A stretch of 64,000 bases of DNA from Mordavella massiliensis (GTDB lineage: Bacteria > Bacillota > Clostridia > Lachnospirales > Lachnospiraceae), in contig NZ_JACJLV010000011.1 of the NCBI RefSeq assembly GCF_016902415.1, positions 1 to 64,000 on the forward strand, given 5' to 3'. The notes under the pieces were generated by a model. It was not told the DNA's origin. It did no database searches and was given only the letters and a program-made list of their open reading frames with translations. Positions 4,437-37,457 of this stretch are shown in pieces. Made by a program: the position numbers and the translations under genes. How positions within the stretch are numbered: position 1 is the stretch's first letter; the number at the start of each line of letters is the position of its first letter.

Positions 4437-5522
4437 ATGGATCAGAAATTAAGAGTCGGAATTTTAGGAGCAACAGGTATGGTAGGACAGAGATTTATTT
4501 CTCTTCTGGAGAACCATCCCTGGTTTGAGGTGGTAACAGTGGCTGCGAGCCCCCGTTCCGCAGGAAAGACGTATGAGGAGGCTGTAGGCGGACGGTGGAA
4601 AATGACCACTCCGATGCCGGAGGCAGTAAAGAACCTGATCGTTCATAATGTAAATGAAGTGGAAGAAGTGGCAAAGACAGTAGACTTTGTATTCAGTGCG
4701 GTTGATATGAGCAAGGATGAGATCCGGGCCATTGAAGAGGCTTATGCAAAGACAGAGACTCCGGTGATGTCCAACAACAGCGCGCACCGCTGGACGCCGG
4801 ACGTGCCGATGGTGATCCCGGAGATCAATATCGATCATTTTGACGTGATTGCCGACCAGAAGAAGAGACTGGGAACGACCAGAGGATTTATCGCTGTAAA
4901 GCCGAACTGCTCAATCCAGAGCTATGCGCCCTGTCTGGCAGCATGGAAGGAATTCGAACCCACAGAAGTGGTTGCAACTACATATCAGGCGATCTCCGGA
5001 GCAGGCAAGACTTTTAAGGACTGGCCGGAGATGGTGGAAAATATCATCCCCTATATCGGCGGAGAAGAGGAAAAGAGCGAACAGGAGCCGCTGCGGGTGC
5101 TGGGCCATATTGAGAACGGCCAGATCGTAAAGGCACAGGGACCGAAGATCACCTGCCAGTGCGTGCGCGTTCCGGTGCTGAACGGCCATACGGCGGCAGT
5201 GTTTATCCGTTTTGCGAAAAAGCCGTCAAAAGAAGAACTGATCGAGAAACTTACCAGCTACCGGGGATTCCCGCAGGAGGCAAAGCTTCCAAGCGCGCCG
5301 GAGCAGTTCATCCGCTACATGGAAGAGGATGACCGTCCGCAGGTAAATCTGGACGTGGATTACGAACACGGCATGGGAGTTTCCATCGGACGTCTCCGGG
5401 AAGACAGCATTTACGATTATAAATTTATCGGCCTTTCCCACAATACGATCCGCGGCGCGGCCGGCGGAGCAGTCCTGTGCGCGGAGGCCCTGACAGCCAA
5501 AGGTTATATTCAGGCAAAATAG
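4437..5522 (+). CDS. asd: Aspartate-semialdehyde dehydrogenase (archaeal/fungal-type)
   Basis: Makes aspartate semialdehyde from aspartyl phosphate with NADPH, feeding lysine/diaminopimelate, threonine and methionine synthesis. The N-terminal GILGATGMVGQ is the dinucleotide-binding turn. The active-site cysteine is C158 in KPNCSIQ. The 361-residue length and the SNNSAHRW motif match the archaeal/fungal-like branch rather than the shorter classical bacterial one. ATG at 4437 is preferred over GTG at 4431 because GAAGGAG lies 9 bases before the ATG. It follows argH by 19 bases and precedes ppk by 16, giving one run of genes. Confidence 0.95.
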   Translation: MDQKLRVGILGATGMVGQRFISLLENHPWFEVVTVAASPRSAGKTYEEAVGGRWKMTTPMPEAVKNLIVHNVNEVEEVAKTVDFVFSAVDMSKDEIRAIEEAYAKTETPVMSNNSAHRWTPDVPMVIPEINIDHFDVIADQKKRLGTTRGFIAVKPNCSIQSYAPCLAAWKEFEPTEVVATTYQAISGAGKTFKDWPEMVENIIPYIGGEEEKSEQEPLRVLGHIENGQIVKAQGPKITCQCVRVPVLNGHTAAVFIRFAKKPSKEELIEKLTSYRGFPQEAKLPSAPEQFIRYMEEDDRPQVNLDVDYEHGMGVSIGRLREDSIYDYKFIGLSHNTIRGAAGGAVLCAEALTAKGYIQAK

Positions 5523-5538
5523 CCATAAAGGAGTTCAC

Positions 5539-7656
5539 ATGGGAACAGAACAAATGAATTATACACAGAACAGGGAGCTTTCCTGGCTGAAGTTTAATCA
5601 GCGGGTCCTGGAGGAAGCCAGGGATGAAACAGTACCGCTGCTGGAACGCATGAAGTTTGTGGCCATCTTTACCAGCAATCTGGATGAATTTTTCATGATC
5701 CGGGTGGGCAGTCTTTTTGACATGGCGCACACAGATGCGGATACCAGAGACAGCAGATCCGGGATGACGCCCCGGGAGCAGCTGGAGCAGATCTTTGAAG
5801 CAGCGGCGCCTCTTTATAAAGAAAGAGACAAGACCTACGCGGAGATCAAGAAGCAGTTAAGCCCATACGGCATCTGCGGGCTGGATTATAAGGAATTAGA
5901 GCAGCAGGAGAAGAAATATGTAAAAAAATATTTCAAAGAACAGATCCTGCCGGTGCTGTCTCCGCAGATCGTGGACGCGAACCATCCGTTCCCCCATCTG
6001 TTGAATAAAGAGATTTATGTAACTGCAAATCTTACCCAGAAAAACAAGGGTTCCAAGGAGGTCCACACCCTGGGCCTTGTCCCGGTTCCCCAGTTTATCT
6101 CGGATATTTTGTACCTTCCGGGACATGACATCCGTTATATCCGGATGGAAAAGGTGATCATGGAGTATCTGAACCTGGTCTTTGACCAGTATGAGGTGTC
6201 CGAGGCGAACTATATCTGCGTGACCAGAAATGCGGACATTGCGCCGGACGACGAGTCCCTGGAGGTGACGGAGGATTTCCGCTACCTGATGAAGGAGACG
6301 CTCCACAAACGGCGCCGGATGGCGGTGGTAAGGCTGGAGACTGCAGAAAAGCTGAAACCGGAGATGGAAAAGTATTTCTGTGAGAAATTTAAGATTTCTC
6401 CGAAACAGATCTTCCGTACCAGGATGCCCATGAAGCTCTCCTATATCTTTTCGATCGCGGGAGACCTGCCGGATTCCATGAAGCGGTCTTTGGTTTACCC
6501 GCCCTTTGTGCCCCAGGATTCCTGCCATGTGCAGGACGGCAGCATGATGAAGCAGATCCGTAAGAAGGATATCCTTCTGTTTTATCCATATGAGAGTATG
6601 AATCCGTTCCTGCGGCTGATCAAGGAGGCGGCTTACGATCCCAATGTACTGACTATCAAGATCACCATTTACCGTCTGGCCAGGAAGGCAAGACTGGTGG
6701 AATACCTCTGCGCCGCGGCGGAAAATGGCAAGGAGGTTACGGTTCTTATTGAACTGCGGGCCCGGTTTGATGAACAGAATAACATCGAGTGGTCGGAGCG
6801 GATGGAGGAAGCCGGTATCCGGGTGATCTATGGAATGGAGGGCTACAAGGTCCATTCCAAGATCTGTCTGATCACCAGCCGGAACCGGAACGATATCCAG
6901 TATATCACGCAGATCGGAACCGGGAATTATAATGAAAAGACAGCGGCCATGTACACAGATCTTTCGCTGATGACGGCGGATCCACAGATTGGCCGGGACG
7001 CGGCGGAATTCTTTAAAAACATGTCGATCGGCAATCTGAACGGAGTTTATCAGAACCTGATCGTGTCGCCTACGTCACTGAAGCCCAATATCCTTCGTCT
7101 GATTGATGAGGAGATTGCCAAAGGCGAGAACGGGCGGATCGTGATGAAGATGAATTCTCTGACGGATGTGGATTTCATCGAGAAGATCTCAAAGGCTTCC
7201 TGTGCAGGCGTCAAGATCGATCTGATCGTCCGGGGCATCTGCTGCATCCTTCCGGGCATTCCGGGCTATACCGAGAATATCCGGGTAATGAGCATTGTAG
7301 GAAGATATCTGGAGCATCCCAGGATCTTCTGCTTCGGGACAGGGGCAGAACAGAAGATCTACATCGGTTCCGCTGATATGATGACGCGGAATACAGAGAA
7401 GCGGGTGGAGGTGGCCTGTCCGATCCTGGACAAAGACATCCGAAACCAGATCAATCACTACATGAAAGTCATGCTCAGTGATAATGTAAAAGCCAGGGTG
7501 CTGCAAAGCGACGGCACCTACAGAAAGAAAAAGGCGTCCCAGCCCTTCATAGATTCCCAGGCAGTATTTATGGAGGAAGCGCTGCACGCAAAGAAGGAAG
7601 CTCCGGAGAAGAGGGAGAACTTCCTGCAGAAACTGGCAGGCCTTTTTCGCGGATAA
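5539..7656 (+). CDS. ppk1: Polyphosphate kinase (PPK1)
   Basis: Reversibly polymerises the gamma-phosphate of ATP into inorganic polyphosphate. The 705 residues cover the PPK1 N, head, and two phospholipase-D-like C domains. The N-terminal NRELSWLKFNQRVLEEA is diagnostic. The histidine expected to be phosphorylated is H439 in YKVHSKICLI, and the second conserved histidine is H593 in YLEHPRIFCF; both agree with the E. coli enzyme. AAGGAG precedes the ATG. Ending 19 bases before topB suggests co-transcription. No exopolyphosphatase gene is adjacent. Confidence 0.96.
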   Translation: MGTEQMNYTQNRELSWLKFNQRVLEEARDETVPLLERMKFVAIFTSNLDEFFMIRVGSLFDMAHTDADTRDSRSGMTPREQLEQIFEAAAPLYKERDKTYAEIKKQLSPYGICGLDYKELEQQEKKYVKKYFKEQILPVLSPQIVDANHPFPHLLNKEIYVTANLTQKNKGSKEVHTLGLVPVPQFISDILYLPGHDIRYIRMEKVIMEYLNLVFDQYEVSEANYICVTRNADIAPDDESLEVTEDFRYLMKETLHKRRRMAVVRLETAEKLKPEMEKYFCEKFKISPKQIFRTRMPMKLSYIFSIAGDLPDSMKRSLVYPPFVPQDSCHVQDGSMMKQIRKKDILLFYPYESMNPFLRLIKEAAYDPNVLTIKITIYRLARKARLVEYLCAAAENGKEVTVLIELRARFDEQNNIEWSERMEEAGIRVIYGMEGYKVHSKICLITSRNRNDIQYITQIGTGNYNEKTAAMYTDLSLMTADPQIGRDAAEFFKNMSIGNLNGVYQNLIVSPTSLKPNILRLIDEEIAKGENGRIVMKMNSLTDVDFIEKISKASCAGVKIDLIVRGICCILPGIPGYTENIRVMSIVGRYLEHPRIFCFGTGAEQKIYIGSADMMTRNTEKRVEVACPILDKDIRNQINHYMKVMLSDNVKARVLQSDGTYRKKKASQPFIDSQAVFMEEALHAKKEAPEKRENFLQKLAGLFRG

Positions 7657-24899: not shown

Positions 24900-25685
24900 G
24901 TGAAAAAGAGATTGAGTGTTTTGCTATGTACGGTAATGACTGCATTTCTGGTCACGGCCTGCACGTCTGCTGATACCATGGAGTATGACAAAGACATGCT
25001 GGAAGAGTCTACGGAGGTACTGATCCAGTACTGTGCCGGGGCGGATGAGACGGTGACAGAGCAGTGGAAGTCTTTATCGGATTACGCGCTGGAGTACCAG
25101 CTGATGCAGTCGGGGCTTCCGTTTACGCCGGAAGGATTTATCGGGGCTCTGGACGCATGGCCGGCTGCCATTGACGAGTGCGGCGAATACATGGGTCACG
25201 GAGATTTTGCCATTACGACAGAAGGAGACGAGATCCATGTAACGGCCATGGGCGAATTCGCGGAACGGGATGCAGAGATCGAAGTGGTATATGACGCGGA
25301 TTCCCGTCTGGATTCGCTGAATGTATCTGCGCAGTACAGTATGGGAGAGATCCTGGAGAAAGCGGGACTTAATACCATCCTTGGAATGGGAACGGTATTT
25401 GTGGTGCTGATCTTTATCTCCATCATCATTTCTCTTATGAAATATATACCGGCTCTTGGTAATTTCTTTACAAAGAAGCCGAAAAAAGAGGAAGCCGGGG
25501 ATGCTTCCGCCATAGAAGCTGTGGAGCCGGCCGCGTCAGAGAGCGCCGGAACAGAAGATCTTCTGGCGGATGAAGAACTGGTGGCCGTGATCGCGGCTGC
25601 GATCGCCGCGGCGGAAGGCGCGGGAACCGATGGATTTGTGGTGCGCAGTATCAGGCGCAGACCGTCAAATAAATGGAAAGCATAG
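24900..25685 (+). CDS. OadG-family subunit with an N-terminal lipoprotein-like extracytoplasmic domain
   Basis: Gamma-type subunit that assembles the sodium-pump decarboxylase. The GTG start at 24900 follows GAGGTGAG. Residues 1-20 look like a lipoprotein signal, with lipobox VTAC and lipidated Cys21. Residues 22-155 form an acidic soluble domain. A membrane helix spans about 162-186 (LGMGTVFVVLIFISII). The C-terminal part is Ala/Glu-rich and ends in FVVRSIRRRPSNKW, which matches the OadG C-terminal consensus. Classical OadG is only about 80-120 residues and begins at the membrane helix, so the first 155 residues are an addition. Confidence 0.82.
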   Translation: MKKRLSVLLCTVMTAFLVTACTSADTMEYDKDMLEESTEVLIQYCAGADETVTEQWKSLSDYALEYQLMQSGLPFTPEGFIGALDAWPAAIDECGEYMGHGDFAITTEGDEIHVTAMGEFAERDAEIEVVYDADSRLDSLNVSAQYSMGEILEKAGLNTILGMGTVFVVLIFISIIISLMKYIPALGNFFTKKPKKEEAGDASAIEAVEPAASESAGTEDLLADEELVAVIAAAIAAAEGAGTDGFVVRSIRRRPSNKWKA

Positions 25686-25705
25686 GAAACAGGAGGATAG
25701 AAACC

Positions 25706-26074
25706 ATGAAAAATTATACGATTACAGTGAATGGAAATGTATACGATGTGACAGTTGAGGAAAAGGGAGCGGCTCCGGCAGCGCCGGTAAAAGCTGCGGC
25801 ACCTAAGGCGGCTCCGAAGGCAGCGCCGGCGCCCAAGGCGGCTCCGGCAAGTGCGGCGGGAGCCATCGAGGTGAAAGCAGGAGCAGCCGGAAAGGTATTT
25901 AAGATCGAGGCGGGCGTTGGCACCAGCGTAAAGAGAGGCGACGCAGTCGTGATCATTGAAGCGATGAAGATGGAGATCCCAGTCGTTGCACCGGAAGACG
26001 GAACCGTTGCAAGCATCAATGTGGCAGTCGGAGACGCGATCGAGGCCGGCGCAGTGCTTGCTACCTTAAATTAG
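25706..26074 (+). CDS. Biotin carboxyl carrier subunit of the decarboxylase (transcarboxylase 1.3S type)
   Basis: Small 122-residue carrier that swings carboxybiotin between the carboxyltransferases and the membrane subunit. Residues 1-20 are a conserved beta start, residues 21-52 an Ala/Pro/Lys hinge (repeated KAAPK units), and 54-122 the biotinyl domain. The biotinylated residue is K88 in EAMKME. ATG at 25706 has AGGAGG upstream; the slightly earlier in-frame ATG lies in the end of the oadG gene. Third gene of the operon. Confidence 0.93.
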   Translation: MKNYTITVNGNVYDVTVEEKGAAPAAPVKAAAPKAAPKAAPAPKAAPASAAGAIEVKAGAAGKVFKIEAGVGTSVKRGDAVVIIEAMKMEIPVVAPEDGTVASINVAVGDAIEAGAVLATLN

Positions 26075-26114
26075 GTTTGGAAGATCCGAACCGAGTACGA
26101 CTGGAGGTTAAAAA

Positions 26115-27266
26115 ATGGAATATATTACAACGACATTGGCAAACCTCGTGCATCAGACTGCGTTTTTCAGTCTCACCTGGGGCAATCTGATCATGATCGG
26201 TGTTGCGTGTTTTTTCCTGTTTCTGGCGATCCGGCATGGATTTGAACCGCTCCTTCTGGTTCCCATCGCATTCGGAATGCTGCTGGTAAACATTTATCCG
26301 GATATTATGCTGCGCCCGGAAGATGCCGCGAACGGCACGGGCGGGCTGTTGTATTATTTTTATGTACTGGATGAGTGGTCCATTTTCCCGTCCCTGATCT
26401 TCCTGGGCGTGGGAGCGATGACAGACTTTGGACCACTGATCGCAAACCCCAAGAGTTTCCTTCTGGGCGCGGCTGCACAGTTTGGTATCTTTGTCGCCTA
26501 TCTTGGCGCTATGGCCATGGGATTTTCCGACAAGGCGGCTGCGGCGATCTCCATCATCGGAGGAGCCGACGGACCGACGTCCATCTTCCTTGCGGGAAAA
26601 CTGTCCCAGACAGCCATCATGGGACCGATCGCTGTGGCGGCATATTCCTATATGTCACTGGTGCCCATTATCCAGCCGCCGATCATGAAGCTTCTGACTA
26701 CGGAAAAAGAGCGGAAGATCAAGATGGAGCAGCTGCGGCCGGTATCAAAGCTGGAGCGGATCCTCTTCCCCATCATCGTTACCATCGTTGTCTGCGTGAT
26801 CCTTCCTACGACCGCGCCTCTGGTGGGTATGCTGATGCTGGGCAACCTGTTCCGGGAGTCCGGCGTGGTAAGGCAGCTGACAGAGACGGCTTCCAATGCG
26901 CTGATGTATATCGTAGTCATCCTGCTTGGAACTTCGGTGGGGGCCACGACCAGCGCGGAGGCCTTCCTGAACTGGGATACGCTTAAGATCGTATTTCTGG
27001 GTCTCATCGCCTTTATGTTCGGTACGGCGGCAGGCGTGCTGCTCGGCAAGGTGATGTGTGTTCTGACCCATGGAAAGGTGAATCCGCTGATCGGATCTGC
27101 GGGTGTATCCGCCGTTCCTATGGCAGCCAGAGTGTCACAGAAGGTAGGGGCGGAAGCGGATCCTACCAACTTCCTTCTGATGCATGCCATGGGCCCCAAT
27201 GTTGCGGGAGTAATCGGTACGGCAGTTGCGGCCGGAACCTTTATGGCTATTTTCGGAGTGATGTAA
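26115..27266 (+). CDS. oadB: Sodium-ion-translocating decarboxylase beta subunit (OadB/GcdB/MmdB)
   Basis: Membrane subunit that decarboxylates carboxybiotin and exports Na+. The 383 residues contain about 9-11 hydrophobic segments. The conserved GGADGPT (149-155) includes D152, equivalent to the Na+-binding aspartate of OadB. The later [18 protein letters not shown] stretch is the second conserved membrane signature. Found behind GGAGG, 40 bases after the biotin carrier gene. The presence of this subunit shows the complex is an ion pump and not just a soluble carboxylase or transcarboxylase. Confidence 0.94.
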
Positions 27267-27289
27267 GAATAAAGATGGAGGAATAGACA

Positions 27290-28705
27290 ATGGCAGAGAT
27301 AGAAAAGAAACCAATTAAAATTACAGAGACCGTCCTTCGGGACGCGCATCAGTCTCTGATCGCCACCCGTATGACGACGGAGCAGATGCTTCCCATCGTG
27401 GAGAAAATGGATCAGGTAGGTTATCACTCCGTAGAATGCTGGGGCGGTGCGACTTTTGACGCTTCCTTGCGTTTCCTGAAGGAAGATCCCTGGGACCGTC
27501 TGCGCAAGTTCCGGGATGGTTTTAAGAATACAAAGCTGCAGATGCTGTTCCGCGGCCAGAATATTCTGGGATACCGTCCCTATGCAGACGACGTGGTAGA
27601 ATATTTCGTAAAAAAATCCGTGGCAAACGGAATTGATATCATCCGTATCTTTGACTGCCTCAATGATCTTAGAAATCTGAAGACGGCGGTCAAGGCGGCC
27701 AATCAGGAAAAGGCAGAGGCCCAGGTGGCGCTTTCCTATACACTGGGCGATGCTTATACCCTGGACTACTGGGTGGATAAGGCAAAGAAGATCGAGGAGA
27801 TGGGAGCTTCTTCTATCTGTATCAAAGATATGGCAGGCCTTCTCCTTCCCTACACGGCCACAGAACTGGTAGGCGCACTGAAAGAAGCGGTAGATCTTCC
27901 GATCCAGCTTCATACCCACTACACCTCCGGCGTGGCTTCCATGACGTATTTAAAAGCCGTTGAAGCAGGGGTGGATGTGATCGACACCGCCATGTCTCCC
28001 TTTGCGCTGGGAACCTCTCAGCCGGCTACCGAGGTTATGGTGGAGACCTTTAAGGGAACGCCTTATGACACTGGCCTGGATCAGAAGCTGCTGTCCGAGA
28101 TCGCGGATTATTTCCGGCCGATCCGGGATGAAGCGCTTGAGACCGGCCTTCTGAATCCCAAGAACCTGGGCGTAAACATCAAAACACTGTTGTATCAGGT
28201 GCCGGGCGGCATGCTGTCCAACCTGACCTCCCAGTTAAAGGAGCAGAACGCAGAAGACCGGTACTACGAAGTGCTGGAGGAAGTTCCAAGAGTCCGCAAA
28301 GACCTGGGCGAGCCGCCGCTTGTCACACCGTCCTCCCAGATCGTGGGAACACAGGCCGTGATGAACGTGCTGATGGGCGAGCGCTACAAGGTGGCGACCA
28401 AGGAGACCAAAGACATCTTAAGCGGAAAATACGGAGAAACCGTAAAACCGTTTAACGAAGAAGTGAAGAAAAAAGTGCTGGGAGACGATGCTGAGGTCAT
28501 CACCTGCAGGCCTGCAGACCTGATCCCGGATGAGATGGACACCCTTCGAAAAGAATGCGAACAGTACGCACAGCAGGACGAAGACGTATTGTCCTACGCA
28601 CTGTTCCCGCAGGTGGCCACAGACTACTTCAAGTATCGGCAGGCACAGCAGACAAAAGTCGACGAAACCATCGCCGATACAGAAAACGGAAACTATCCGG
28701 TGTAA
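27290..28705 (+). CDS. Oxaloacetate/pyruvate carboxyltransferase subunit (OadA / PycB / transcarboxylase 5S type)
   Basis: Carboxyltransferase that takes a carboxyl group from oxaloacetate (or gives one to pyruvate) through biotin. The 471 residues form an HMGL-like TIM barrel with a metal site: TETVLRDAHQS (D18), the SICIKDMAG lysine and LHTHYTSG histidines. The C-terminal conserved domain is present (about 310-440), but the biotinyl domain seen in full-length OadA is missing; the separate carrier gene supplies it. Last gene of the operon, followed by a palindrome. It coexists with an acyl-CoA carboxyltransferase in the same operon, which is discussed as a finding. Confidence 0.92.
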   Translation: MAEIEKKPIKITETVLRDAHQSLIATRMTTEQMLPIVEKMDQVGYHSVECWGGATFDASLRFLKEDPWDRLRKFRDGFKNTKLQMLFRGQNILGYRPYADDVVEYFVKKSVANGIDIIRIFDCLNDLRNLKTAVKAANQEKAEAQVALSYTLGDAYTLDYWVDKAKKIEEMGASSICIKDMAGLLLPYTATELVGALKEAVDLPIQLHTHYTSGVASMTYLKAVEAGVDVIDTAMSPFALGTSQPATEVMVETFKGTPYDTGLDQKLLSEIADYFRPIRDEALETGLLNPKNLGVNIKTLLYQVPGGMLSNLTSQLKEQNAEDRYYEVLEEVPRVRKDLGEPPLVTPSSQIVGTQAVMNVLMGERYKVATKETKDILSGKYGETVKPFNEEVKKKVLGDDAEVITCRPADLIPDEMDTLRKECEQYAQQDEDVLSYALFPQVATDYFKYRQAQQTKVDETIADTENGNYPV

Positions 28706-28721
28706 GAAACGATTTTATTGC

Positions 28722-28757
28722 TGGGGACGGGGGATTTCTGGAAATCCCCCGTCCCCA
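28722..28757. repeat. Long palindrome, family B copy 1
   Basis: Perfect 17-bp arms (28722-28738 and 28741-28757) around TG. The core GGGGACGGGGGATTT and its complement recur at 57577-57610. Located 17 bases past the oadA-like stop and before the RpiR promoter; there is no U-tract. Confidence 0.85.
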
Positions 28758-28765
28758 TTTGCTGC

Positions 28766-28794
28766 TTGAATATTCGGCCGCCAGGATTTATAAT
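28766..28794 (+). promoter_or_regulatory. Promoter of the RpiR regulator gene
   Basis: TTGAAT (28766-28771), 17-base spacer, TATAAT (28789-28794), about 38 bases before the start codon. Confidence 0.75.
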
Positions 28795-28832
28795 GGAGAG
28801 GATTTTAGAGGAGAAAAGGATAGGTTTGTGTC

Positions 28833-29759
28833 ATGGGAAGCAAAAACGAGTTACTTCAAAAAATTGACGAGAGGTATCTTGGGTTCAGCAAGGGCCAGAA
28901 GAAGCTGGCTGACTTTATCCGGGAGGAATATGATAAGGCGGCGTTTCTGACGGCGGCCAGGATGGGGGAAGAAGTGGGCGTCAGCGAGTCCACGGTGGTC
29001 CGCTTTGCAACGGCTCTTGGCTATCATGGATACCCGGATTTTCAAAAGGCGCTTGGCGAGATGGTGCGGACAAAGCTGAATTCCATCCAGCGGATGGAGG
29101 TTACCTACGGGCGGATCAGCCAGGGGGAGATCCTGGAGACGGTCCTTCAGTCTGATATTGAAAAGATCAAACTGACCATGTCGGCGATCGACCACGATGC
29201 GTTTGAACTGGCGGTAGAGACGCTTCTTAAGGCAAGGAAGATTTATGTGATCGGAATCCGAAGCTGTGCGCCGCTGGCGCATTTTCTGAGTTTTTACCTG
29301 AATCTGATCTGTGATGATGTGACTGCGGTCAGCACCAACAGTTCCAGTGAGATCTTTGAACAGCTGATCCGTATCGGCGAGGATGACGTGATCATCGGGA
29401 TCAGTTTTCCGAGATATTCCATGCGGACCCTGAAGGCCCTGGAGTTTGCCAGCAGCCGCAAGGCCAAGGTGATTACGCTGACAGACAGCATTCATTCGCC
29501 GATGAATCTGTATTCTTCCTGCAACCTGATCGCAAGAAGCGATATGGCGTCCATTGTGGACTCCCTGGTGGCGCCGTTAAGTGTGGTCAACGCCCTGGTG
29601 GTAGCCCTGTGCATGAAAAAGCAGGATGAAGTCATCACCAGACTGGAGACGCTGGAGAAGATCTGGGACGAGTATCAGGTGTACAGCAAAGACGAGATGA
29701 ACCTGGTAGGAGACAGTGTGGAAATGAATGGCGTGAAGGAAGAGGAGGACCATGAGTAA
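28833..29759 (+). CDS. MurR/RpiR family transcriptional regulator
   Basis: DNA-binding regulator that senses a phosphosugar-like ligand. Residues 1-75 form the RpiR helix-turn-helix domain (FIREEYDKAAFLTAARMGEE, then VSESTVVRFATALGYHGYPDF). Residues about 120-255 are a SIS domain (IYVIGIRSCAPLAHFL; DVIIGISFPRYS). The 308-residue length is slightly above the usual 280-290 owing to an acidic tail. No sugar-catabolic genes are next to it. The downstream gene overlaps by 8 bases and encodes a flavoprotein, so its target may be elsewhere. Confidence 0.92.
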   Translation: MGSKNELLQKIDERYLGFSKGQKKLADFIREEYDKAAFLTAARMGEEVGVSESTVVRFATALGYHGYPDFQKALGEMVRTKLNSIQRMEVTYGRISQGEILETVLQSDIEKIKLTMSAIDHDAFELAVETLLKARKIYVIGIRSCAPLAHFLSFYLNLICDDVTAVSTNSSSEIFEQLIRIGEDDVIIGISFPRYSMRTLKALEFASSRKAKVITLTDSIHSPMNLYSSCNLIARSDMASIVDSLVAPLSVVNALVVALCMKKQDEVITRLETLEKIWDEYQVYSKDEMNLVGDSVEMNGVKEEEDHE

Positions 29760-30987
29760 AGTCTTGATCGCAGGCGGCGGGGCCGCCGGAATGTATGCGG
29801 CAGTCACGGCCGCAGCGCTGGGACATAAAGTGGAGCTGTTTGAAAAAAACGACCGGCTGGGAAGGAAGCTTTTTATAACCGGAAAAGGCCGGTGCAACCT
29901 GACCAACGCCTGCGATATGGAGGGGCTTTTCGACGCGGTAGTGACCAATTCCAAATTTTTATACAGCAGCTTTTACGGCTGCACCAATCAGGATGTGATC
30001 GACTTTTTCGAACATGCGGGGGTCCGGACAAAGATCGAACGGGGCGAGCGCGTATTCCCGGCTTCTGATCATTCTTCGGATGTGATCCGGGCACTGGAAA
30101 GAGAACTGGAGAAAAATGGTGTGAAGATCCGGACAAACTGCCCGGTAAAAAAGGTCCGCATTTCAGAGGAGCAGGTGTTTTTAGGATATGAACTGGAAAA
30201 CGGTTCTTTTGTGGAAGGAGACGCCGGGATCGTCGCCACAGGCGGACTTTCCTATCCGTCTACAGGATCTACGGGAGACGGGCTGCGGTTTGCAAAAGAA
30301 CTGGGCCATCAGGTGACAGAGTGCCTGCCGGCGCTGGTGCCCATGGAATGCAAAGAACCCTGGGCGGCAGAGCTGCAGGGGCTGTCTCTTCGGAATGTCC
30401 GGGCCAGGATCCTGGACGGGAAAAAAGTTCTGTATGAAGAGTTCGGGGAAATGTTATTTACCCATTACGGGGTCAGCGGGCCATTAATGCTGACAGCCAG
30501 CAGTTTTGTGGGAAAGCGGCTTAAGAAAAAGGAACTGACTCTGGAAATCGATCTGAAACCGGCGCTTACGGATGAGCAGCTGGATCACCGGATCCTGCGG
30601 GATTTTGAAGAAAATAAGAACCGGCAGTTTAAAAATGCTCTGGGAAAATTATTTCCTGCGAAGCTGATCCCGGTCATGGTTTTTTTAAGTGGGATCGATC
30701 CGGAGAAAAAGGTCAATGAGGTGACCAGGGAAGAACGGCAGGCCTTTGTCCGCCTGATCCGTCATCTTCCCCTGACGCTGACCGGCCTTCGGGATTACCG
30801 GGAAGCGATCATCACCAAAGGCGGGGTCAGTGTAAAAGAAGTGGATCCGGGCACCATGGAATCAAAGCTGGTGAAAGGTCTGTATTTTGCGGGAGAAGTG
30901 CTGGACCTGGATGCGGTAACGGGCGGGTTTAACCTGCAGATCGCCTGGTCCACCGGCTGTGCGGCCGGACGGGGGATCCCGGTATAG
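29752..30987 (+). CDS. NAD(P)/FAD-dependent oxidoreductase, HI0933/YhiN family
   Basis: Flavoprotein of 411 residues. FAD-binding signature at the N terminus is VLIAGGGAAGMYAAVTAAALGHKVELFE, followed by KLFITGKGRCNLTN, a hallmark of this family. The C terminus has GLYFAGEVLDLDAVTGGFNLQIAWSTG, the second FAD contact. Biochemical function of the family is not settled (aminoacetone oxidase-like activity has been discussed). The start overlaps the RpiR gene by 8 bases, and cmk follows 45 bases later. Confidence 0.9.
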   Translation: MSKVLIAGGGAAGMYAAVTAAALGHKVELFEKNDRLGRKLFITGKGRCNLTNACDMEGLFDAVVTNSKFLYSSFYGCTNQDVIDFFEHAGVRTKIERGERVFPASDHSSDVIRALERELEKNGVKIRTNCPVKKVRISEEQVFLGYELENGSFVEGDAGIVATGGLSYPSTGSTGDGLRFAKELGHQVTECLPALVPMECKEPWAAELQGLSLRNVRARILDGKKVLYEEFGEMLFTHYGVSGPLMLTASSFVGKRLKKKELTLEIDLKPALTDEQLDHRILRDFEENKNRQFKNALGKLFPAKLIPVMVFLSGIDPEKKVNEVTREERQAFVRLIRHLPLTLTGLRDYREAIITKGGVSVKEVDPGTMESKLVKGLYFAGEVLDLDAVTGGFNLQIAWSTGCAAGRGIPV

Positions 30988-31032
30988 AACAGCCGCAGAC
31001 ATTACATATAGAAGAGGAAAAGAGGACAGAAC

Positions 31033-31710
31033 ATGGGATTTAATGTAGCGATCGACGGGCCGGCAGGAGCCGGAAAAAGTACAATAGCAAAGCTGGTGGC
31101 AGAAAAGGAGCAGTTTATCTATGTGGATACCGGAGCCATGTACCGGGGGCTTGCCGTCTATTTTCTGGATCACGGGGTTTCCCCGGAGAACGAAGGAGAA
31201 CTGGAAAATGCCTGTGAAAAGATAAAGATGGATATCCGCTATGAGAACAAGGTGCAGCAGGTTTATGTGAACGGAGAAAATATTACCGGAAGACTCCGGG
31301 AAGAGGCCGTTGGCAATATGGCTTCTGTGTGCGCGGCAGTACCGGTGGTCCGGGAAAAGCTCCTGGAACTGCAAAGAGAACTTGCGGCGGCCCAGGATGT
31401 GATCATGGACGGCAGGGATATCGGCACCTGTGTGCTTCCGCAGGCAGACTTGAAAATATTCCTTACAGCCAGCGTGGAAACCCGGGCCAGGCGGAGATAT
31501 CTGGAATTAAAGGAAAAAGGCGTCGCATGTGATCTGGAAGAGATCGCAGCCGACATAAGAGAGAGGGACGAGCGGGATTCCACCCGTAAGACCGCTCCTT
31601 TAAAACAGGCGGCAGATGCGGTTCTGATCGACAGTTCAGATCTCTCGATCGAAGAAGTGGTGGCAGTGATCGCATCCCTGTGCAGAGAGAAGAGAAAAAC
31701 CCCGAATTGA
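31033..31710 (+). CDS. cmk: Cytidylate kinase
   Basis: Phosphorylates CMP and dCMP to the diphosphates. The 225 residues start with DGPAGAGKSTIAKLVA (P-loop) and contain YVDTGAMYRG and MDGRDIGTCVLPQA, both CMP-site motifs. RERDERDSTRKTAPL is the lid/C-terminal signature. In related Clostridia the next gene is ispH followed by or fused to rpsA; here only a fragment of ispH remains downstream. RBS GAAAAGAGGA precedes the ATG. Confidence 0.96.
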   Translation: MGFNVAIDGPAGAGKSTIAKLVAEKEQFIYVDTGAMYRGLAVYFLDHGVSPENEGELENACEKIKMDIRYENKVQQVYVNGENITGRLREEAVGNMASVCAAVPVVREKLLELQRELAAAQDVIMDGRDIGTCVLPQADLKIFLTASVETRARRRYLELKEKGVACDLEEIAADIRERDERDSTRKTAPLKQAADAVLIDSSDLSIEEVVAVIASLCREKRKTPN

Positions 31711-31728
31711 AAAAAAACAAAGATTTTG

Positions 31729-31757
31729 TTGAAATAATCTACAAAAAGGGGTATGAT
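31729..31757 (+). promoter_or_regulatory. Promoter upstream of the ispH remnant and rpsA
   Basis: TTGAAA (31729-31734), 17-base spacer, TATGAT (31752-31757), in the 227-base gap after cmk. It would drive rpsA on its own, with an approximately 170-base leader that contains the ispH remnant. Confidence 0.65.
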
Positions 31758-31794
31758 ATAGTTGTTTTAAACAAAATCTGTAATGCGAGAAAAG

Positions 31795-31957
31795 GAAGGC
31801 AGTAAGGCCTGTGAGAATACGTACTTATATACAGACACTTGACGATTTGGATATGAATCAATTAAGGTCCGTGGAAACAGTAGGTATTACAGCAGGGGCA
31901 TCCACGCCCAAGAAAATAATTGAGGAGGTTCAAAGCAATGTCAGATTTAACTTTTGA
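31795..31957 (+). pseudogene. ispH: Frameshifted C-terminal remnant of ispH (HMB-PP reductase)
   Basis: Two frames together encode the C-terminal end of IspH. Codons at 31795-31824 give EGSKACENTY, the region of the last conserved Fe-S cysteine. One extra base (about 31825) then shifts the frame, and 31826-31957 gives YIQTLDDLD, then SVETVGITAGASTPKKIIEE, the highly conserved IspH C terminus, ending in a stop that overlaps the rpsA start by 20 bases. A weaker match (ICNARK) continues upstream to about 31776 after another one-base shift. The other roughly 230 residues of IspH are absent. The rpsA ribosome binding site lies inside the remnant, which may explain why this end is preserved. Confidence 0.82.
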
Positions 31958-33035
31958 ACAGATGTTAGAGGAGTCTTTTAAGACTATCAGAAACGGCGAG
32001 GTCGTAGACGGTACCGTCATCGACGTGAAGCCGGATGAGATCATTTTAAATATAGGATACAAGGCAGACGGTATCATCACAAGAAGTGAGTATACCAATG
32101 ATTCGAATGCAGATCTGACCACGATGGTGTCTGTAGGAGATACTTTAACAGCAAAGGTGCTGAAGGTGAATGACGGAGAAGGCCAGGTGCTTCTGACCTA
32201 CAAGCGTCTGCTGGCTGAGAAAGGCAACGAGAGACTCAAAGAGGCTTATGAGAATCATGAAGTGCTGAAAGCTCCGGTTACCCAGATCCTGGGCGGCGGT
32301 TTAAGCGTAGTCGTAGACGAGGCCAGAGTCTTTATTCCTGCAAGTCTGGTATCTGATACTTATGAGAAAGATCTTAGCAAATACCAAGATCAGGAGATCG
32401 AGTTTGTGATCAGCGAGTTCAACCCAAGAAGAAACCGCGTGATCGGCGACAGAAGACAGCTTCTGGTTGCAGAAAGAGCAGAGAAGCAGAGAGAACTGTT
32501 CGCAAAACTGCAGGTTGGCGACAGGATCGAAGGAACCGTTAAGAACGTAACAGATTTCGGCGCGTTCATCGACCTTGGCGGAGTAGACGGCCTGCTTCAC
32601 ATTTCCGAGATGTCCTGGGGACGGATCGAAAATCCGAAGAAGGTATTCAAGGTTGGCGAGCAGCTGGAAGTCCTGATCAAGGATATCCACGATACCAAGA
32701 TCGCATTAAGCCTGAAGTTCCCGGAGACCAATCCGTGGGCAAATGCAGAAGAGAAGTATGCGCCCGGAACAGTGATCGAAGGCAAAGTGGCAAGAATGAC
32801 AGATTTTGGCGCTTTTGTAGAGCTGGCGCCCGGCGTGGACGCACTTCTCCATGTATCCCAGATCTCCAAGGCTCATGTAGACAAGCCGTCTGACGTACTG
32901 AGCGTGGGACAGGAGATCACCGCTAAGATCGTAGATCTGAATGTGGATGAGAAAAAGATCAGCTTGAGCATGAAAGCACTTGAGAAAAATACGGAAGAAG
33001 CAGCAGAGCAGCATGAAGCAGAGGAAGAAGAATAA
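31938..33035 (+). CDS. rpsA: 30S ribosomal protein S1 (four S1 domains)
   Basis: RNA-binding protein with S1 domains at about residues 20-90, 108-178, 195-262 and 278-348, then an acidic tail (EEAAEQHEAEEEE). Domain 3 contains the classical GTVKNVTDFGAFIDLGGVDG. The 365-residue length fits Firmicute S1-like proteins, which have fewer domains than E. coli S1. ATG at 31938 follows GAGGAGG. In many Clostridia the protein is fused to or sits directly after IspH; here it follows a decayed ispH fragment. Its own promoter and terminator are present. Confidence 0.93.
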   Translation: MSDLTFEQMLEESFKTIRNGEVVDGTVIDVKPDEIILNIGYKADGIITRSEYTNDSNADLTTMVSVGDTLTAKVLKVNDGEGQVLLTYKRLLAEKGNERLKEAYENHEVLKAPVTQILGGGLSVVVDEARVFIPASLVSDTYEKDLSKYQDQEIEFVISEFNPRRNRVIGDRRQLLVAERAEKQRELFAKLQVGDRIEGTVKNVTDFGAFIDLGGVDGLLHISEMSWGRIENPKKVFKVGEQLEVLIKDIHDTKIALSLKFPETNPWANAEEKYAPGTVIEGKVARMTDFGAFVELAPGVDALLHVSQISKAHVDKPSDVLSVGQEITAKIVDLNVDEKKISLSMKALEKNTEEAAEQHEAEEEE

Positions 33036-33093
33036 TCAGTCTGATTTTGTAACAAAACATATTTACAATTTCTATAAGTGCAATAGAGAGAAT

Positions 33094-33124
33094 AGATAGA
33101 GGCATCAGTGCCTCTATCTTTTTT
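33094..33124 (+). terminator. Intrinsic terminator after rpsA
   Basis: Perfect 11-bp stem AGATAGAGGCA/TGCCTCTATCT with a TCAG loop, followed by six Ts. Confidence 0.92.
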
Positions 33125-33183
33125 GTGTGTTAAAAAACAGACAAGATGTTTGTGGAAATATACAAAGAAAAACCACGAATTAC

Positions 33184-33212
33184 TGGAAAATCTGTGGATT
33201 TTCTTGTATGAT
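33184..33212 (+). promoter_or_regulatory. Promoter of the rnf operon
   Basis: TGGAAA (33184-33189), 17-base spacer, TATGAT (33207-33212), about 37 bases upstream of rnfC. The -35 match is weak and the -10 match is good. Confidence 0.55.
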
Positions 33213-33248
33213 AGAAAATAGAGTAAAAAGGAAGGAAGGATTAAAGGG

Positions 33249-34568
33249 ATGGCATTGTTAACATTTAAAGGTGGAATTCATCCTGACGACGGCAAAGAGC
33301 TGGCGAAGCATAAAGAGATCGTTGAGCTGAAGCCGAAGGGGGATCTTGTCTACCCGGTATCCCAGCACATCGGCGCGCCCGCAAAGCCGGTTGTGGAAAA
33401 GGGAGATCATGTTTTGAAAGGGCAGATGATCGCAGAAGCAGGCGGTTTTGTGTCTGCTCCTGTTTATGCGTCTGTTTCCGGGACAGTGAAATCCATTGCC
33501 CCGCACCTGAACCCTACGGGCGGAACAGTCAACAGTATCATCGTGGAGAACGATGGAGAATATGAAGAAGTAGAATATCCGGAGGTAAAGCCTCTGGAGG
33601 AGATGACAAAAGAAGAGATTCTGGAGACCATTGGAAATGCCGGTATCGTCGGCATGGGCGGCGCCGGATTCCCGACCAGAGTCAAGCTCTCTCCAAAGGA
33701 GCCGGACAAGATCGACTATGTGATCGCAAACTGTGCAGAATGTGAGCCTTATATCACGGCAGACTACCGCACCATGCTGGAGATGCCGGAGAAGCTGGTG
33801 GGCGGTATGAAGATCGTCCTGAAGCTTTTTGATAACGCGAAGGGAATCTTCGGCGTGGAGGACAATAAGCCGGATTGTATCGCAAAGCTGAAAGAACTGA
33901 CCAAGGACGAGCCGAGAATGGAAGTCCTGGCCTTAAAGACCAAGTATCCTCAGGGCGGTGAGCGTCAGCTCATTTACGCCACTACCGGACGGGCGATCAA
34001 TTCCGCCATGCTTCCGGCAGACGCAGGATGTGTGGTAGACAACGTGGCTACGATGGTCAGCATCTACCAGGCGGTAGCGGAAGGAAAGCCTTCCATGGAG
34101 CGTATCGTGACGGTAAGCGGCGACGCGGTCAATGAACCGGGCAACTTCAAGGTGCCTTTTGGCATCAGTCATGCGGAACTGGTAGAGGCGGCAGGCGGTT
34201 TCAAGACGGAACCGGAAAAGCTGATCTCCGGCGGACCGATGATGGGATTTGCCATGGTATCACTGGATGTGCCGGTGACAAAAACGTCTTCTTCCATCCT
34301 TGGATTTACAAAGGATGAGGTGGCAAAGTTTGAACCGACGGCATGTATCAACTGCGGACGCTGCGTAGAAGCCTGTCCGAGCCGGCTGATCCCGTCCAGA
34401 CTGGCAGATTACGCAGAGCATCATGATGAAGAGAAGTTCGTGGCGCACGAAGGGCTTGAATGTATGGAGTGCGGCTCCTGCAGTTATGTCTGCCCGGCGA
34501 AGCGCCAGCTGAAGCAGGCGATCGGTTCTATGAGAAAGATTGCACTTGCAAACCGCAAGAAAAAATAA
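33249..34568 (+). CDS. rnfC: Rnf electron transport complex subunit C
   Basis: Peripheral subunit that holds NADH- and FMN-binding elements plus two [4Fe-4S] clusters. The 439 residues show the N-terminal RnfC barrel-sandwich (GGIHPDDGKELAKHKEI), the nucleotide-binding GNAGIVGMGGAGFPT, and two ferredoxin motifs near the C terminus: CINCGRCVEACP and CMECGSCSYVCP. First gene of a complete six-gene operon with small gaps, in the order C-D-G-E-A-B used by Clostridia. Confidence 0.97.
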   Translation: MALLTFKGGIHPDDGKELAKHKEIVELKPKGDLVYPVSQHIGAPAKPVVEKGDHVLKGQMIAEAGGFVSAPVYASVSGTVKSIAPHLNPTGGTVNSIIVENDGEYEEVEYPEVKPLEEMTKEEILETIGNAGIVGMGGAGFPTRVKLSPKEPDKIDYVIANCAECEPYITADYRTMLEMPEKLVGGMKIVLKLFDNAKGIFGVEDNKPDCIAKLKELTKDEPRMEVLALKTKYPQGGERQLIYATTGRAINSAMLPADAGCVVDNVATMVSIYQAVAEGKPSMERIVTVSGDAVNEPGNFKVPFGISHAELVEAAGGFKTEPEKLISGGPMMGFAMVSLDVPVTKTSSSILGFTKDEVAKFEPTACINCGRCVEACPSRLIPSRLADYAEHHDEEKFVAHEGLECMECGSCSYVCPAKRQLKQAIGSMRKIALANRKKK

Positions 34569-34601
34569 GAAAAAGAATGAAGAGGAAGAGGTGAACCAAA
34601 C

Positions 34602-35558
34602 GTGAGTGAGATCAAATTAAAAGTATCGTCTTCACCACATATCCGTTCCAAAATAACCTCAGGCAATATTATGCTCATGGTAACCATCGCACTGTTGCCG
34701 TCAGCCGTTTTTGGGGTATGGAACTTCGGACTGTCAGCGCTTATTATGCTGATCAGCACAGTAGCCGCCGCGGTCCTGACTGAGTACATCTATGAAAAAC
34801 TGATGCATAAAAAAGTAACAGTAGGAGATTTCAGTGCTGTTGTAACAGGTCTTCTGCTGGGACTGAACATGCCGCCTTCAGCTCCCTGGTGGATGGGCGC
34901 TCTGGGAAGTGTGTTCGGTATCCTGATCGTAAAGCAGCTTTTCGGAGGACTGGGACAGAACTTTATGAACCCGGCTCTTGGAGCAAGATGCTTCCTGCTT
35001 TTATCTTTTACCGGTCCGATGACCAGCTTCGTCTATGACGGAGTGACAGGTCCGACTCCCCTTGCCTATGTGAAGGAAGGAGCCATGGACCAGATCAATA
35101 CGCTGGATATGATGATCGGTACGATCCCCGGAACCATCGGTGAGACCTCCGTGATCGCCATCATCATCGGAGCGATCTTCCTGATCCTGATGGGAGTGAT
35201 CGACCTTCGGATCCCCGGCACCTACATTGTAACCTTCGTGATCTTTGTCGGGATCTTCGGCCATGTGGCACATCCGGAGATCGGATTTTTCGATCCCCAG
35301 TACATCACCGCTCACCTGTGCGGCGGCGGTCTGATGCTGGGCGCGTGGTTTATGGCAACAGATTATGTTACCTCCCCGATCACGCCGAGAGGGCAGATCG
35401 TATATGGTATCATACTTGGCGTTCTGACCGGACTGTTCCGTATCTTCGGCGGATCCGCAGAAGGCGTTTCCTACGCGATCATCATCAGTAACCTTCTGGT
35501 TCCGCTGATCGAGAAGGTTACTCTTCCAAAACCATTTGGTAAAGGAGGAGAAAAATAA
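34602..35558 (+). CDS. rnfD: Rnf complex subunit D
   Basis: Membrane subunit that carries covalent FMN and takes part in Na+/H+ translocation. 318 residues, about nine membrane segments, GTG start at 34602. The flavinylation motif lies at DGVTGPTPLA, so the expected FMN-threonine is T152. The motif reads TGPT rather than the usual S/T-G-A-T. Its stop codon overlaps the rnfG start by one base. Confidence 0.95.
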   Translation: MSEIKLKVSSSPHIRSKITSGNIMLMVTIALLPSAVFGVWNFGLSALIMLISTVAAAVLTEYIYEKLMHKKVTVGDFSAVVTGLLLGLNMPPSAPWWMGALGSVFGILIVKQLFGGLGQNFMNPALGARCFLLLSFTGPMTSFVYDGVTGPTPLAYVKEGAMDQINTLDMMIGTIPGTIGETSVIAIIIGAIFLILMGVIDLRIPGTYIVTFVIFVGIFGHVAHPEIGFFDPQYITAHLCGGGLMLGAWFMATDYVTSPITPRGQIVYGIILGVLTGLFRIFGGSAEGVSYAIIISNLLVPLIEKVTLPKPFGKGGEK

Positions 35559-36142
35559 TGAATAAGATCATCAAAAATACTATCATACTTACGGTGATCA
35601 CGCTGGTTTCCGGTCTCTTACTGGGATTGGCTTATGAGGTCACCAAAGATCCCATCGCCCAGTCTGAGGAAAATGCGAAAAGAGAGGCATGGCAGGCAGT
35701 ATTCCCGGATGCTTCCGAAGATGCGTTTGAGCAGATAGATGTGGACCAGGATATTGCGGCTTCCGTGATAAAGGATCTGGGAATCTCCGCAACGATCGAT
35801 GAAGTCTGCACTGTGGACGGCGGAGACACCGGATATGTGATCACTGCTACAGACGGCGAAGGCTACGGCGGAGATATCCAGGTGACTGTGGGGATCACGG
35901 CAGACGGAACCGTCAGCGGCGTATCCTTCCTGTCCATCAGCGAAACTGCCGGCCTTGGCATGAAGGCGACGGAGCCCTCCTTCTATGAGCAGTATGTAGG
36001 CGTACAGGCAGAGCAGTTCTATGTATCAAAAGACGGCGGCCAGGGCGAGCCGATTGACGCGTTAAGCGGAGCCACCATCACAACCAGGGCAGTGACCGGC
36101 GCGGTAAATGCGGCGCTTGGTTATTTCCAGAATGCGTTTTAG
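35558..36142 (+). CDS. rnfG: Rnf complex subunit G
   Basis: Single-span subunit (helix about 8-26) with a large extracytoplasmic FMN-binding domain. The covalent FMN motif SGAT is at residues 170-173 (DALSGATITT), with T173 the expected acceptor, modified by ApbE, whose gene lies at the end of this cluster. The stretch SISETAGLGMKATEPSF is the other conserved part of the domain. 194 residues, normal length. Confidence 0.95.
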   Translation: MNKIIKNTIILTVITLVSGLLLGLAYEVTKDPIAQSEENAKREAWQAVFPDASEDAFEQIDVDQDIAASVIKDLGISATIDEVCTVDGGDTGYVITATDGEGYGGDIQVTVGITADGTVSGVSFLSISETAGLGMKATEPSFYEQYVGVQAEQFYVSKDGGQGEPIDALSGATITTRAVTGAVNAALGYFQNAF

Positions 36143-36153
36143 GAGGTGCTTCG

Positions 36154-36870
36154 ATGAATTCATGTTTTGAAAGATTAAAAAATGGTTTGATAGATGAGAA
36201 CCCGATCTTCGTTCTCCTGTTAGGTATGTGTCCCACGCTTGCGGTCACAACCTCAGCAGTGAACGGTGTCGGCATGGGACTTTCTACAACAGCGGTTCTG
36301 GTTATGTCCAATATGCTGATCTCCATGCTGCGTAAGATCATTCCGGATTCTGTCCGGATGCCGGCCTTTATCGTGGTCGTTGCTTCTTTCGTAACGATCG
36401 TGGACTTCCTGATGGAAGGTTTTACACCGGCTCTTTATGATTCACTGGGATTATATATCCCGCTGATCGTTGTAAACTGTATCATTCTTGGACGTGCAGA
36501 GAGCTATGCTTCCAAGAATCCGGTGCTTCCGTCCATCTTTGACGGCCTTGGCATGGGACTTGGATTTACCGTGGCTCTGATCGCCATCGGTCTGGTCCGC
36601 GAGATCATCGGTGCAGGCCAGGCGTTCGGCTATCAGCTTCTGCCGCTTGCAGATGAAGCTGCAGGAAAAGGCGGATACGTTCCGGTGACCATCTTTATCC
36701 TGGCGCCCGGTGCATTCCTGGTACTGGCTGTGCTGGCTGCGATCCAGAACAAGGTAAAGATCAATCTGGAAAAGAAGGGCAAGGATGCTTCCAAGATCCA
36801 GTCCGGATGCGGCGGCGACTGCGCGGCCTGCGGCGGATGTGCATCTACGTCCGGTAATGGGAAAGAATAG
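36154..36870 (+). CDS. rnfE: Rnf complex subunit E with a Cys-rich C-terminal tail
   Basis: Membrane subunit, about six helices, paired with RnfA in the inverted-topology RnfA/E core that holds a shared iron centre. The core motifs NPIFVLLLGMCPTLAVTT and YIPLIVVNCIILGRAE are intact. The 238-residue protein ends in a hydrophilic tail (about 210-238) with the pattern C-x3-C-x2-C-x2-C (CGGDCAACGGC). Most RnfE proteins stop near the last membrane helix. AGGAGG upstream of the ATG; rnfA follows 11 bases later. Confidence 0.95.
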   Translation: MNSCFERLKNGLIDENPIFVLLLGMCPTLAVTTSAVNGVGMGLSTTAVLVMSNMLISMLRKIIPDSVRMPAFIVVVASFVTIVDFLMEGFTPALYDSLGLYIPLIVVNCIILGRAESYASKNPVLPSIFDGLGMGLGFTVALIAIGLVREIIGAGQAFGYQLLPLADEAAGKGGYVPVTIFILAPGAFLVLAVLAAIQNKVKINLEKKGKDASKIQSGCGGDCAACGGCASTSGNGKE

Positions 36871-36881
36871 GAGGAGGAAAA

Positions 36882-37457
36882 ATGGGAGATTTGATTTTAA
36901 TTGCAGTCGGTTCTGCACTTGTAAGTAATGTCGTGCTCAGCCAGTTCCTCGGAATCTGTTCCTTCCTTGGCGTATCCAAAAAGACAGAGACCGCCGTTGG
37001 AATGGGCGGAGCGGTTATCTTTGTTATCACGCTGGCATCCCTGGTGGCCGGACTGTTGTATCAGTTTATTTTACAGCCTCTGGGATTTGATTATCTGAAT
37101 ACGATCGTATTTATCCTGGTCATTGCGGCCCTGGTACAGATCGTAGAAATGTTCCTGAAAAAATTTGTTCCGTCTCTTTACAATGCGCTGGGCGTTTATC
37201 TGCCGCTGATCACCACCAACTGTGCGGTGCTTGGCGTGGCGCTGAACAACGTGCAGGATGAATACAACATCCTGGAGAGCGTGGTAAACGGATTTGCCAC
37301 AGGCGTCGGCTATCTGATCGCTATCGTGCTGCTGGCAGGCATCCGTGAAAAAATGGAATACAATGACATTCCGGAATCCTTTAAGGGAATACCGATCGTG
37401 CTGGTAACATCTACGCTGATGGCGATCGCGTTCTTTGGATTCTCCGGACTGATATAG
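36882..37457 (+). CDS. rnfA: Rnf complex subunit A
   Basis: Six-helix membrane subunit of 191 residues, partner of RnfE. Conserved VLSQFLGICSFLGVS at the N terminus contains the cysteine that helps bind the intramembrane iron cluster, and YLPLITTNCAVLGVAL holds the second conserved cysteine. Length and motifs are normal. GGAGGAGG lies before the start; rnfB follows after 13 bases. Confidence 0.96.
   Translation: MGDLILIAVGSALVSNVVLSQFLGICSFLGVSKKTETAVGMGGAVIFVITLASLVAGLLYQFILQPLGFDYLNTIVFILVIAALVQIVEMFLKKFVPSLYNALGVYLPLITTNCAVLGVALNNVQDEYNILESVVNGFATGVGYLIAIVLLAGIREKMEYNDIPESFKGIPIVLVTSTLMAIAFFGFSGLI

Follow-up and report, generated by a model that had tools for sequence, protein, structure and literature searches.

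Remnants of a dead ispH gene hold a candidate promoter and leader of rpsA in a Lachnospiraceae genome

Intragenic sigma-70 promoters are a known kind of regulatory element. The promoter-like sequence described here resembles them in having two hexamers and a 17-bp spacer inside a preceding gene, from where it could drive the following one, and differs in that its position is conserved across many genera and that it has outlasted its host gene. Autogenous leaders of ribosomal protein genes (r-leaders) form a second such kind, with 20 candidates described in PMC7247131, which contains none of the terms bS1, rpsA, ispH and lytB. The rpsA leader discussed below shares with r-leaders the character of a conserved, probably structured RNA located directly 5' of a ribosomal protein gene and including its ribosome-binding site; unlike them, it lies within enzyme coding sequence and has no match in Rfam, and its binding by S1 is putative. 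The same two genes, ispH and rpsA, are joined in the IspH-RPS1 fusion proteins of anaerobic Firmicutes (PMC4746011), whereas at our locus the genes are separate and ispH is dead. The function of the ispH-rpsA pairing is left open in the excerpted text of that paper, which does not use the words promoter or operon. Finally, Mycoplasma tullyi and Mycoplasmoides gallisepticum are reported, in the excerpt of PMC10663253, to lack IspH only. They are alike in carrying MEP genes with ispH missing, but their genomes are below 1 Mb, compared with 2.6 Mb and a visible ispH pseudogene here. An rpsA element embedded in ispH was found neither in Rfam nor in any paper among the matches listed from the open-licence literature (titles and abstract openings), although intragenic promoters and ribosomal-protein leaders are each of a known kind.

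Two pieces of a dead ispH between cmk and rpsA

The window, that is, the whole 64-kb stretch of DNA analysed, covers 64 kb from the start of a 67.3-kb contig in a draft genome of 2.61 Mb (G000; 141 contigs, completeness 99.87%, contamination 0.17%); the features of the cmk-rpsA region given below are on the forward strand. The gap of interest is bounded upstream by an intact cmk, encoding cytidylate kinase (31033-31710; Pfam Cytidylate_kin, 1.5e-75), whose best named relatives are Lachnospiraceae and Roseburia records at 59-68% identity, and downstream by an intact rpsA, encoding ribosomal protein S1 (31938-33035; four S1 domains, 2.5e-63), whose start overlaps the 3' end of the old ispH. Gene order is collinear with G001, a genome of the same genus, for 12/12 window genes compared (25673-37454), and dN/dS of rpsA against G001 is 0.021. 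Comparison of the gap with close relatives, which the initial annotation had proposed, reveals an intact ispH there in both G001 and G002, the second genome of the genus, again with cmk as the upstream neighbour.

In the window the gap consists of two pieces of dead ispH, at ~31716-31802 and 31803-31957. The first covers codons ~175-203 in a broken frame, its ends placed approximately by alignment to relatives and by a match to a profile of nine IspH sequences (31707-31808, codons 170-203, with one stop, E 3.7e-5). The second covers codons ~236-285 and the stop, with an open frame at 31826-31957, and now forms the rpsA leader. It matches Pfam LYTB positions 227-266 at 31823-31942 (E 3.1e-9 in the whole genome, 2e-10 alone) and the nine-IspH profile at 31823-31951 (E 2.5e-14). 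The sequence of the 3' piece is VGITAGASTPKKIIEEVQ; that of the 5' piece, which lies in a different frame, is KDFVEIIYKKGYDIVVLNKICNARKGRQ. Thus the decayed 3' end of ispH that had been noticed between cmk and rpsA is real, but it survives as two pieces and not as one. Against G001 and G002, codons 1-~174 (~0.55 kb) are gone, a second deletion has removed 95 bp in codons ~204-235, and one base has been inserted near 31825, where a one-base shift had already been suspected; both pieces also carry many substitutions, and piece 1, compared with four relatives along 76 of its bases, is 74-89% identical at the nucleotide level. The missing part therefore amounts to ~205 residues in two blocks, in place of the first ~230 residues supposed at the outset.

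The remnant is far from a functional enzyme gene. The full LYTB domain spans 267 profile positions, of which the window has 227-266, plus codons 170-203 in another frame. Three cysteines are invariant among the nine IspH sequences, C12, C99 and C196, which we take to be the cluster ligands; C12 and C99 lay in the deleted sequence, and C196 is left in the broken frame, within the NKICNA motif of the upstream piece. The cysteine in ACENTY, previously read as the last Fe-S cysteine, is not among these three. Nor is the locus a fusion of the IspH-RPS1 type, the remnant frame stopping at 31957 and rpsA beginning at 31938 in a different frame.

The interval between the HI0933-like gene and cmk is 45 bp in the window (30988-31032) and ~645 bp in G001; a frame of ~200 amino acids lies just 5' of cmk in G001 and G002 (L002:172-789, L003:190-792) and is missing from the window, which reflects either a further deletion here or an insertion in the relatives. 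In locus L044, the cmk match (5001-5654) and ispH (~8228) are ~2.5 kb apart, with ispH and rpsA still adjoining.

Constraint and promoter-like hexamers in intact ispH genes

Intact genes were drawn from 38 loci (L002-L031, the best 30 of 58 matches, and L043-L050), all of which have an ispH hit except L050. Excluding L008, L017, L048 and L049 as distant, and L044 as a near-copy of L043, leaves a codon set of 32 genes: 27 from the window's family, one (L023) from another family of the order, and four from named records. In these genes, nucleotide-level constraint is observed chiefly at two places. The ratio of synonymous identity to that expected from codon usage, computed over windows of 12 codons, stays at 0.96-1.37 as far as codon 168, rises to 1.42-1.74 in codons 163-198 (the promoter block), returns to 0.94-1.21 in codons 193-240 and reaches 1.26-2.31 in codons 235-282, which hold the rpsA leader and ribosome-binding site. 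The kept remnant pieces fall within both constrained blocks. A random 25-codon piece equals the kept promoter piece in constraint at 18/210 positions, and the deleted codons 199-235 rank 47/248 from the least constrained; the match of the deletions to the blocks is therefore only suggestive.

The promoter block contains a candidate -35 element, TTGAAA (31729-31734), followed after 17 bp by a candidate -10 element, TATGAT (31752-31757). The pattern TTGAAA/TTGCAA-17-TAnnAT is present at one place, always with a spacing of 17, in 32/32 intact ispH genes compared, in the window, and in G388, a genome of another genus of the family with a dead ispH of its own; hexamers of sigma-70 type, 16-18 bp apart and at a conserved position, are thus found in every one of them. 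Among the 32 genes the -35 element is TTGAAA in 31 and TTGCAA in one, and the -10 element is TATGAT in 24, TACAAT in five, TATAAT in two and TATTAT in one. In the remaining sequence of these genes, ~29 kb with the S1 portions of two fusions counted in, the strict 17-base pattern has 19 matches. The -10 element shifts from TATGAT to TACAAT or TATAAT where the encoded residues go from Tyr-Asp to Tyr-Asn, preserving TAnnAT, and such a change appears to be what a promoter allows. Of the five loci left out of the codon set, L044 has the promoter, inspection by eye showed none at that place in L008, L048 or L049, and in L017 it was not located. The initial annotation saw the promoter-like sequence (31729-31757) as standing in place of lost residues. 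The alignments indicate otherwise: it corresponds to ispH codons ~179-188, is present in relatives, and is old coding sequence and not new.

Two kinds of fused gene carry comparable signals. The fusions L018 and L027, from the window's family, keep the promoter, the leader core, AAGGAGG or GAGGAGG, and an in-frame ATG as in unfused genes, and they might therefore yield free S1 as well. The Candidatus Merdivicinus IspH-S1 fusions L048 and L049 have TTGACA-17-CATAAT, AAGGAGG and an in-frame ATG inside the fused gene; judging by these motifs, they may yield free S1 from within the fusion.

The rpsA leader and the fate of the locus

The ribosome-binding site of rpsA, GAGGAGG (31922-31928), lies within old ispH codons, and its AGGAGGT is invariant in the 33 sequences of the leader alignment (A1). 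The leader core of the window is identical in 86/87 nt to those of L002 (G001), L003 (G002), L043 and L044, and in 84 to that of L026, while codons 1-162 of L002, L003, L043 and L026 show 61-72% identity in five of the six pairs compared. Piece 2 is 96% identical to its counterparts in G001 and G002, compared with 85 and 82% for the stretch of rpsA compared (81% against L043). Both hexamers are preserved in the window, as are the leader core and the ribosome-binding site.

The leader is probably structured, as judged from helices that were taken from single folds and tested separately by slides, shuffles and resampling. Helix P1 is predicted to pair 31816-31824 with 31880-31888 (GTAGGTATT), and hairpin P2 is predicted at 31896-31909, as GGGC-N6-GCCC here and GGGG-N6-CCCC in most relatives. 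P1, formed by AATACTTAC and GTAGGTATT, has nine pairs, or eight that flank a mismatch, and is seen in 5/6 single folds; P2 of the GGGG-N6-CCCC type is seen in 6/6. Four of the six folds have weak z-scores (-0.97 to -1.77). In the window, 8/9 P1 pairs form; here and in the nearest relatives a G-G mismatch takes the place of the ninth, and P2 is displaced by one position. Over P1, P2 and a short outer helix (16 pairs, 33 sequences), 93.8% of cells pair, against 40.5-53.2% when the strands are slid. Shuffling the 3' letters among sequences leaves pairing at 93.0%, because most columns hardly vary, and 6/500 shuffles reach the observed value. In a synonymous resampling of the 32 genes, paired cells number 267/288 in P1 against a resampled mean of 197, 123/128 in P2 against 105, and 91/96 in the outer helix against 83. 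All nine P1 pairs form in 19/32 genes and all four P2 pairs in 27/32. The z-score of P1, 12.2 against -2.1 to 4.4 for eight slid decoys, is inflated by shared ancestry and by the choice of helices after folding. Covariation is weak, with 1/16 named pairs changed on both sides, in five cells, and RNAalifold on the A1 alignment returned no useful consensus structure (eight pairs, none covarying). A search of Rfam with window positions 31500-32100 gave only Ysr224, at 13.9 bits and E 3.2 against a gathering score of 70, and thus no family; among 10 relatives there was no match at the gathering score.

The reading that we consider very probable is that the last third of intact ispH in Lachnospiraceae also supplies rpsA with a promoter and a leader, and that this part has outlived the enzyme gene in the window. 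In relatives, the same bases encode IspH residues and would in addition specify a start of rpsA transcription and a 5' leader with the ribosome-binding site. Two deletions and a frameshift killed ispH here, leaving a promoter piece and a leader piece, so that rpsA would retain its own promoter (31729-31757) and a leader of ~175 nt. Transcription would most likely start near 31764 from the embedded promoter, and the ~175-nt leader would fold into P1 and P2 just 5' of the ribosome-binding site. Synthesis of S1 would in this way be set apart from cmk-ispH read-through, and control through the leader would most likely consist of feedback by S1 or of control of access to the start site. We infer that the promoter is active and drives rpsA, that S1 synthesis is regulated through the leader, and that selection, not chance, kept both in this genome. 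The earlier proposal that ispH was lost by deletion and its 3' end kept for rpsA is the best-supported reading, with the extension that a piece holding the internal promoter was kept too and that intact genes show nucleotide-level constraint at both places.

Alternatively, the two deletions may simply have left a remnant, whose 3' end stays because it carries the ribosome-binding site of rpsA, with the promoter piece having no role. The modest retention statistics (18/210) would agree with such chance survival, as would the second dead ispH: in G388, identity to the consensus is 0.75 in the leader and 0.70 in both the promoter block and the middle, without any excess in the promoter block. Selection on the blocks is for these reasons best shown by the intact genes and not by the two dead ones. 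Chance survival, however, accounts neither for the synonymous constraint nor for the promoter at a fixed place in 32/32 intact genes, and both hexamers are untouched in the window though the flanking piece 1 has diverged to 74-89%; we regard it as improbable. If the embedded promoter and leader are indeed in dual use, this natural deletion and the intact-gene comparison point to part of an essential enzyme gene being selected for a role besides its protein product, the control of S1. Dual use would also give a concrete reason for the adjacency or fusion of ispH and rpsA in Clostridia.

IspH and isoprenoid supply

The loss of ispH raises the matter of isoprenoid supply, for which the initial annotation offered three outcomes: an ispH elsewhere, a replacement enzyme, or no MEP pathway. 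The assembly contains no other ispH beyond the two remnant pieces, by either the Pfam model or the nine-IspH profile, which includes a Bacilli-type IspH and was searched at E up to 10. The absence of the pathway does not fit, because the genome encodes complete Dxs, Dxr, IspE, IspF and IspG, each above its NCBIfam cut-off, as is farnesyl diphosphate synthase (ispA); uppS is also intact. A replacement enzyme for IspH may exist. The mevalonate route was searched for by its GHMP kinases, of which the genome has two matches only, ispE and one that we read as galactokinase; the GHMP-family mevalonate kinase, phosphomevalonate kinase and decarboxylase are thus not seen in it. Against G001, dN/dS is 0.067 for dxs, 0.063 for dxr, 0.044 for ispG, 0.099 for ispF and 0.101 for ispE, within the range of neighbouring genes, although dS mostly exceeds 1 for the MEP genes, so that a recent relaxation would stay hidden.

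A census of ispH in 396 genomes of the family with at least 95% completeness, G000 included, found some match in 393, with a best E of 4.3e-50 or below in 391. The five outliers are G000, G388 (2.1e-5) and three genomes with no match (G083, G088 and G376). The pattern of the leader core is absent from these three as well, suggesting a gap at the locus, and they are not counted as further losses, being probably gaps. In nine genomes searched with this pattern, the leader was found in four (G000, G328, G347 and G370); the search missed G214 and G388, the leader of the latter being recognisable by alignment.

A working ispH, moved or acquired, may lie in an unassembled stretch, the old copy having decayed later, and we give this close to an even chance. 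The assembly is in 141 contigs, and the three census genomes with neither an ispH match nor the leader core pattern indicate that gaps may hide the locus. The dN/dS values of the other MEP genes tested (0.044-0.101, within the neighbours' range) speak for such a copy, as does the view in the excerpt of PMC10663253 that IspH is otherwise indispensable. A completeness of 99.87% speaks against it, as does the permissive search at E up to 10, whose profile includes a Bacilli-type IspH and which recovers the remnants only.

True loss is plausible too, though we would place it short of even. The cell would then have no IspH and would either import its isoprenoid units or rely on an unrelated HMBPP reductase, with the loss of ispH as the first step of MEP decay. 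Two genomes argue for it: G388, of the same family, carries dead copies of dxs, ispF, ispG and ispH beside an intact ispA, and G055, of the same order, has ispA-type and uppS genes without dxr, ispG, ispH or a GHMP kinase match. Loss of known IPP synthesis therefore seems to occur near the window's lineage. Against true loss stand the complete and conserved Dxs, Dxr, IspE, IspF and IspG, and we know of no import route for isoprenoid units. The combined claim is more tentative still, namely that IspH is truly lost with Dxs to IspG kept and no sign of a mevalonate route among the GHMP kinases searched, that isoprenoid import or a novel HMBPP reductase makes up for it, and that an S1 regulatory RNA once held in enzyme codons is now a stand-alone leader. 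A survey of 4,400 species describes IspG and IspH as evolutionarily rigid, with no promising bypass candidate in the excerpted text (PMC10663253). Were the combined claim true, an IspH-less bacterium of Lachnospiraceae type with 2.6 Mb would be an exception to the rule that IspH is never bypassed. The window's genome, G388 and G055 offer cases for a direct test of isoprenoid supply without IspH or a known IPP pathway. That an assembly error produced the remnant from an intact ispH is hardly credible even in a draft of 141 contigs, since the pieces carry many substitutions on top of a frameshift and two deletions, and a misjoin is unlikely because 12/12 compared genes keep the order of G001.

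The second dead ispH belongs to a smaller genome. G388 (1.4 Mb) has its ispH broken by stops along the length (L081, G388:C3:23500-31500), and dxs, ispG and ispF are broken as well, with ispA open (L082, L096 and L098), so that this is a MEP pathway in decay. It keeps TTGCAA-17-TATAAT, all nine P1 pairs, GGGG..CCCC and GAGGAGG. G055 (1.6 Mb, 99% complete; L063 and L094) has uppS and a polyprenyl synthase, with no known IPP source seen alongside the absences listed above. In G057, another genome of the order, ispH and dxr are likewise missing; its GHMP kinases number four. G002 has a second ispH (L051:10582-11496, G002:C51), which was considered as a spare copy and rejected: it is 32% identical to the native gene and lies close to the end of a contig, and the genome shows 7% contamination. 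It is probably foreign sequence of Bacilli-type appearance.
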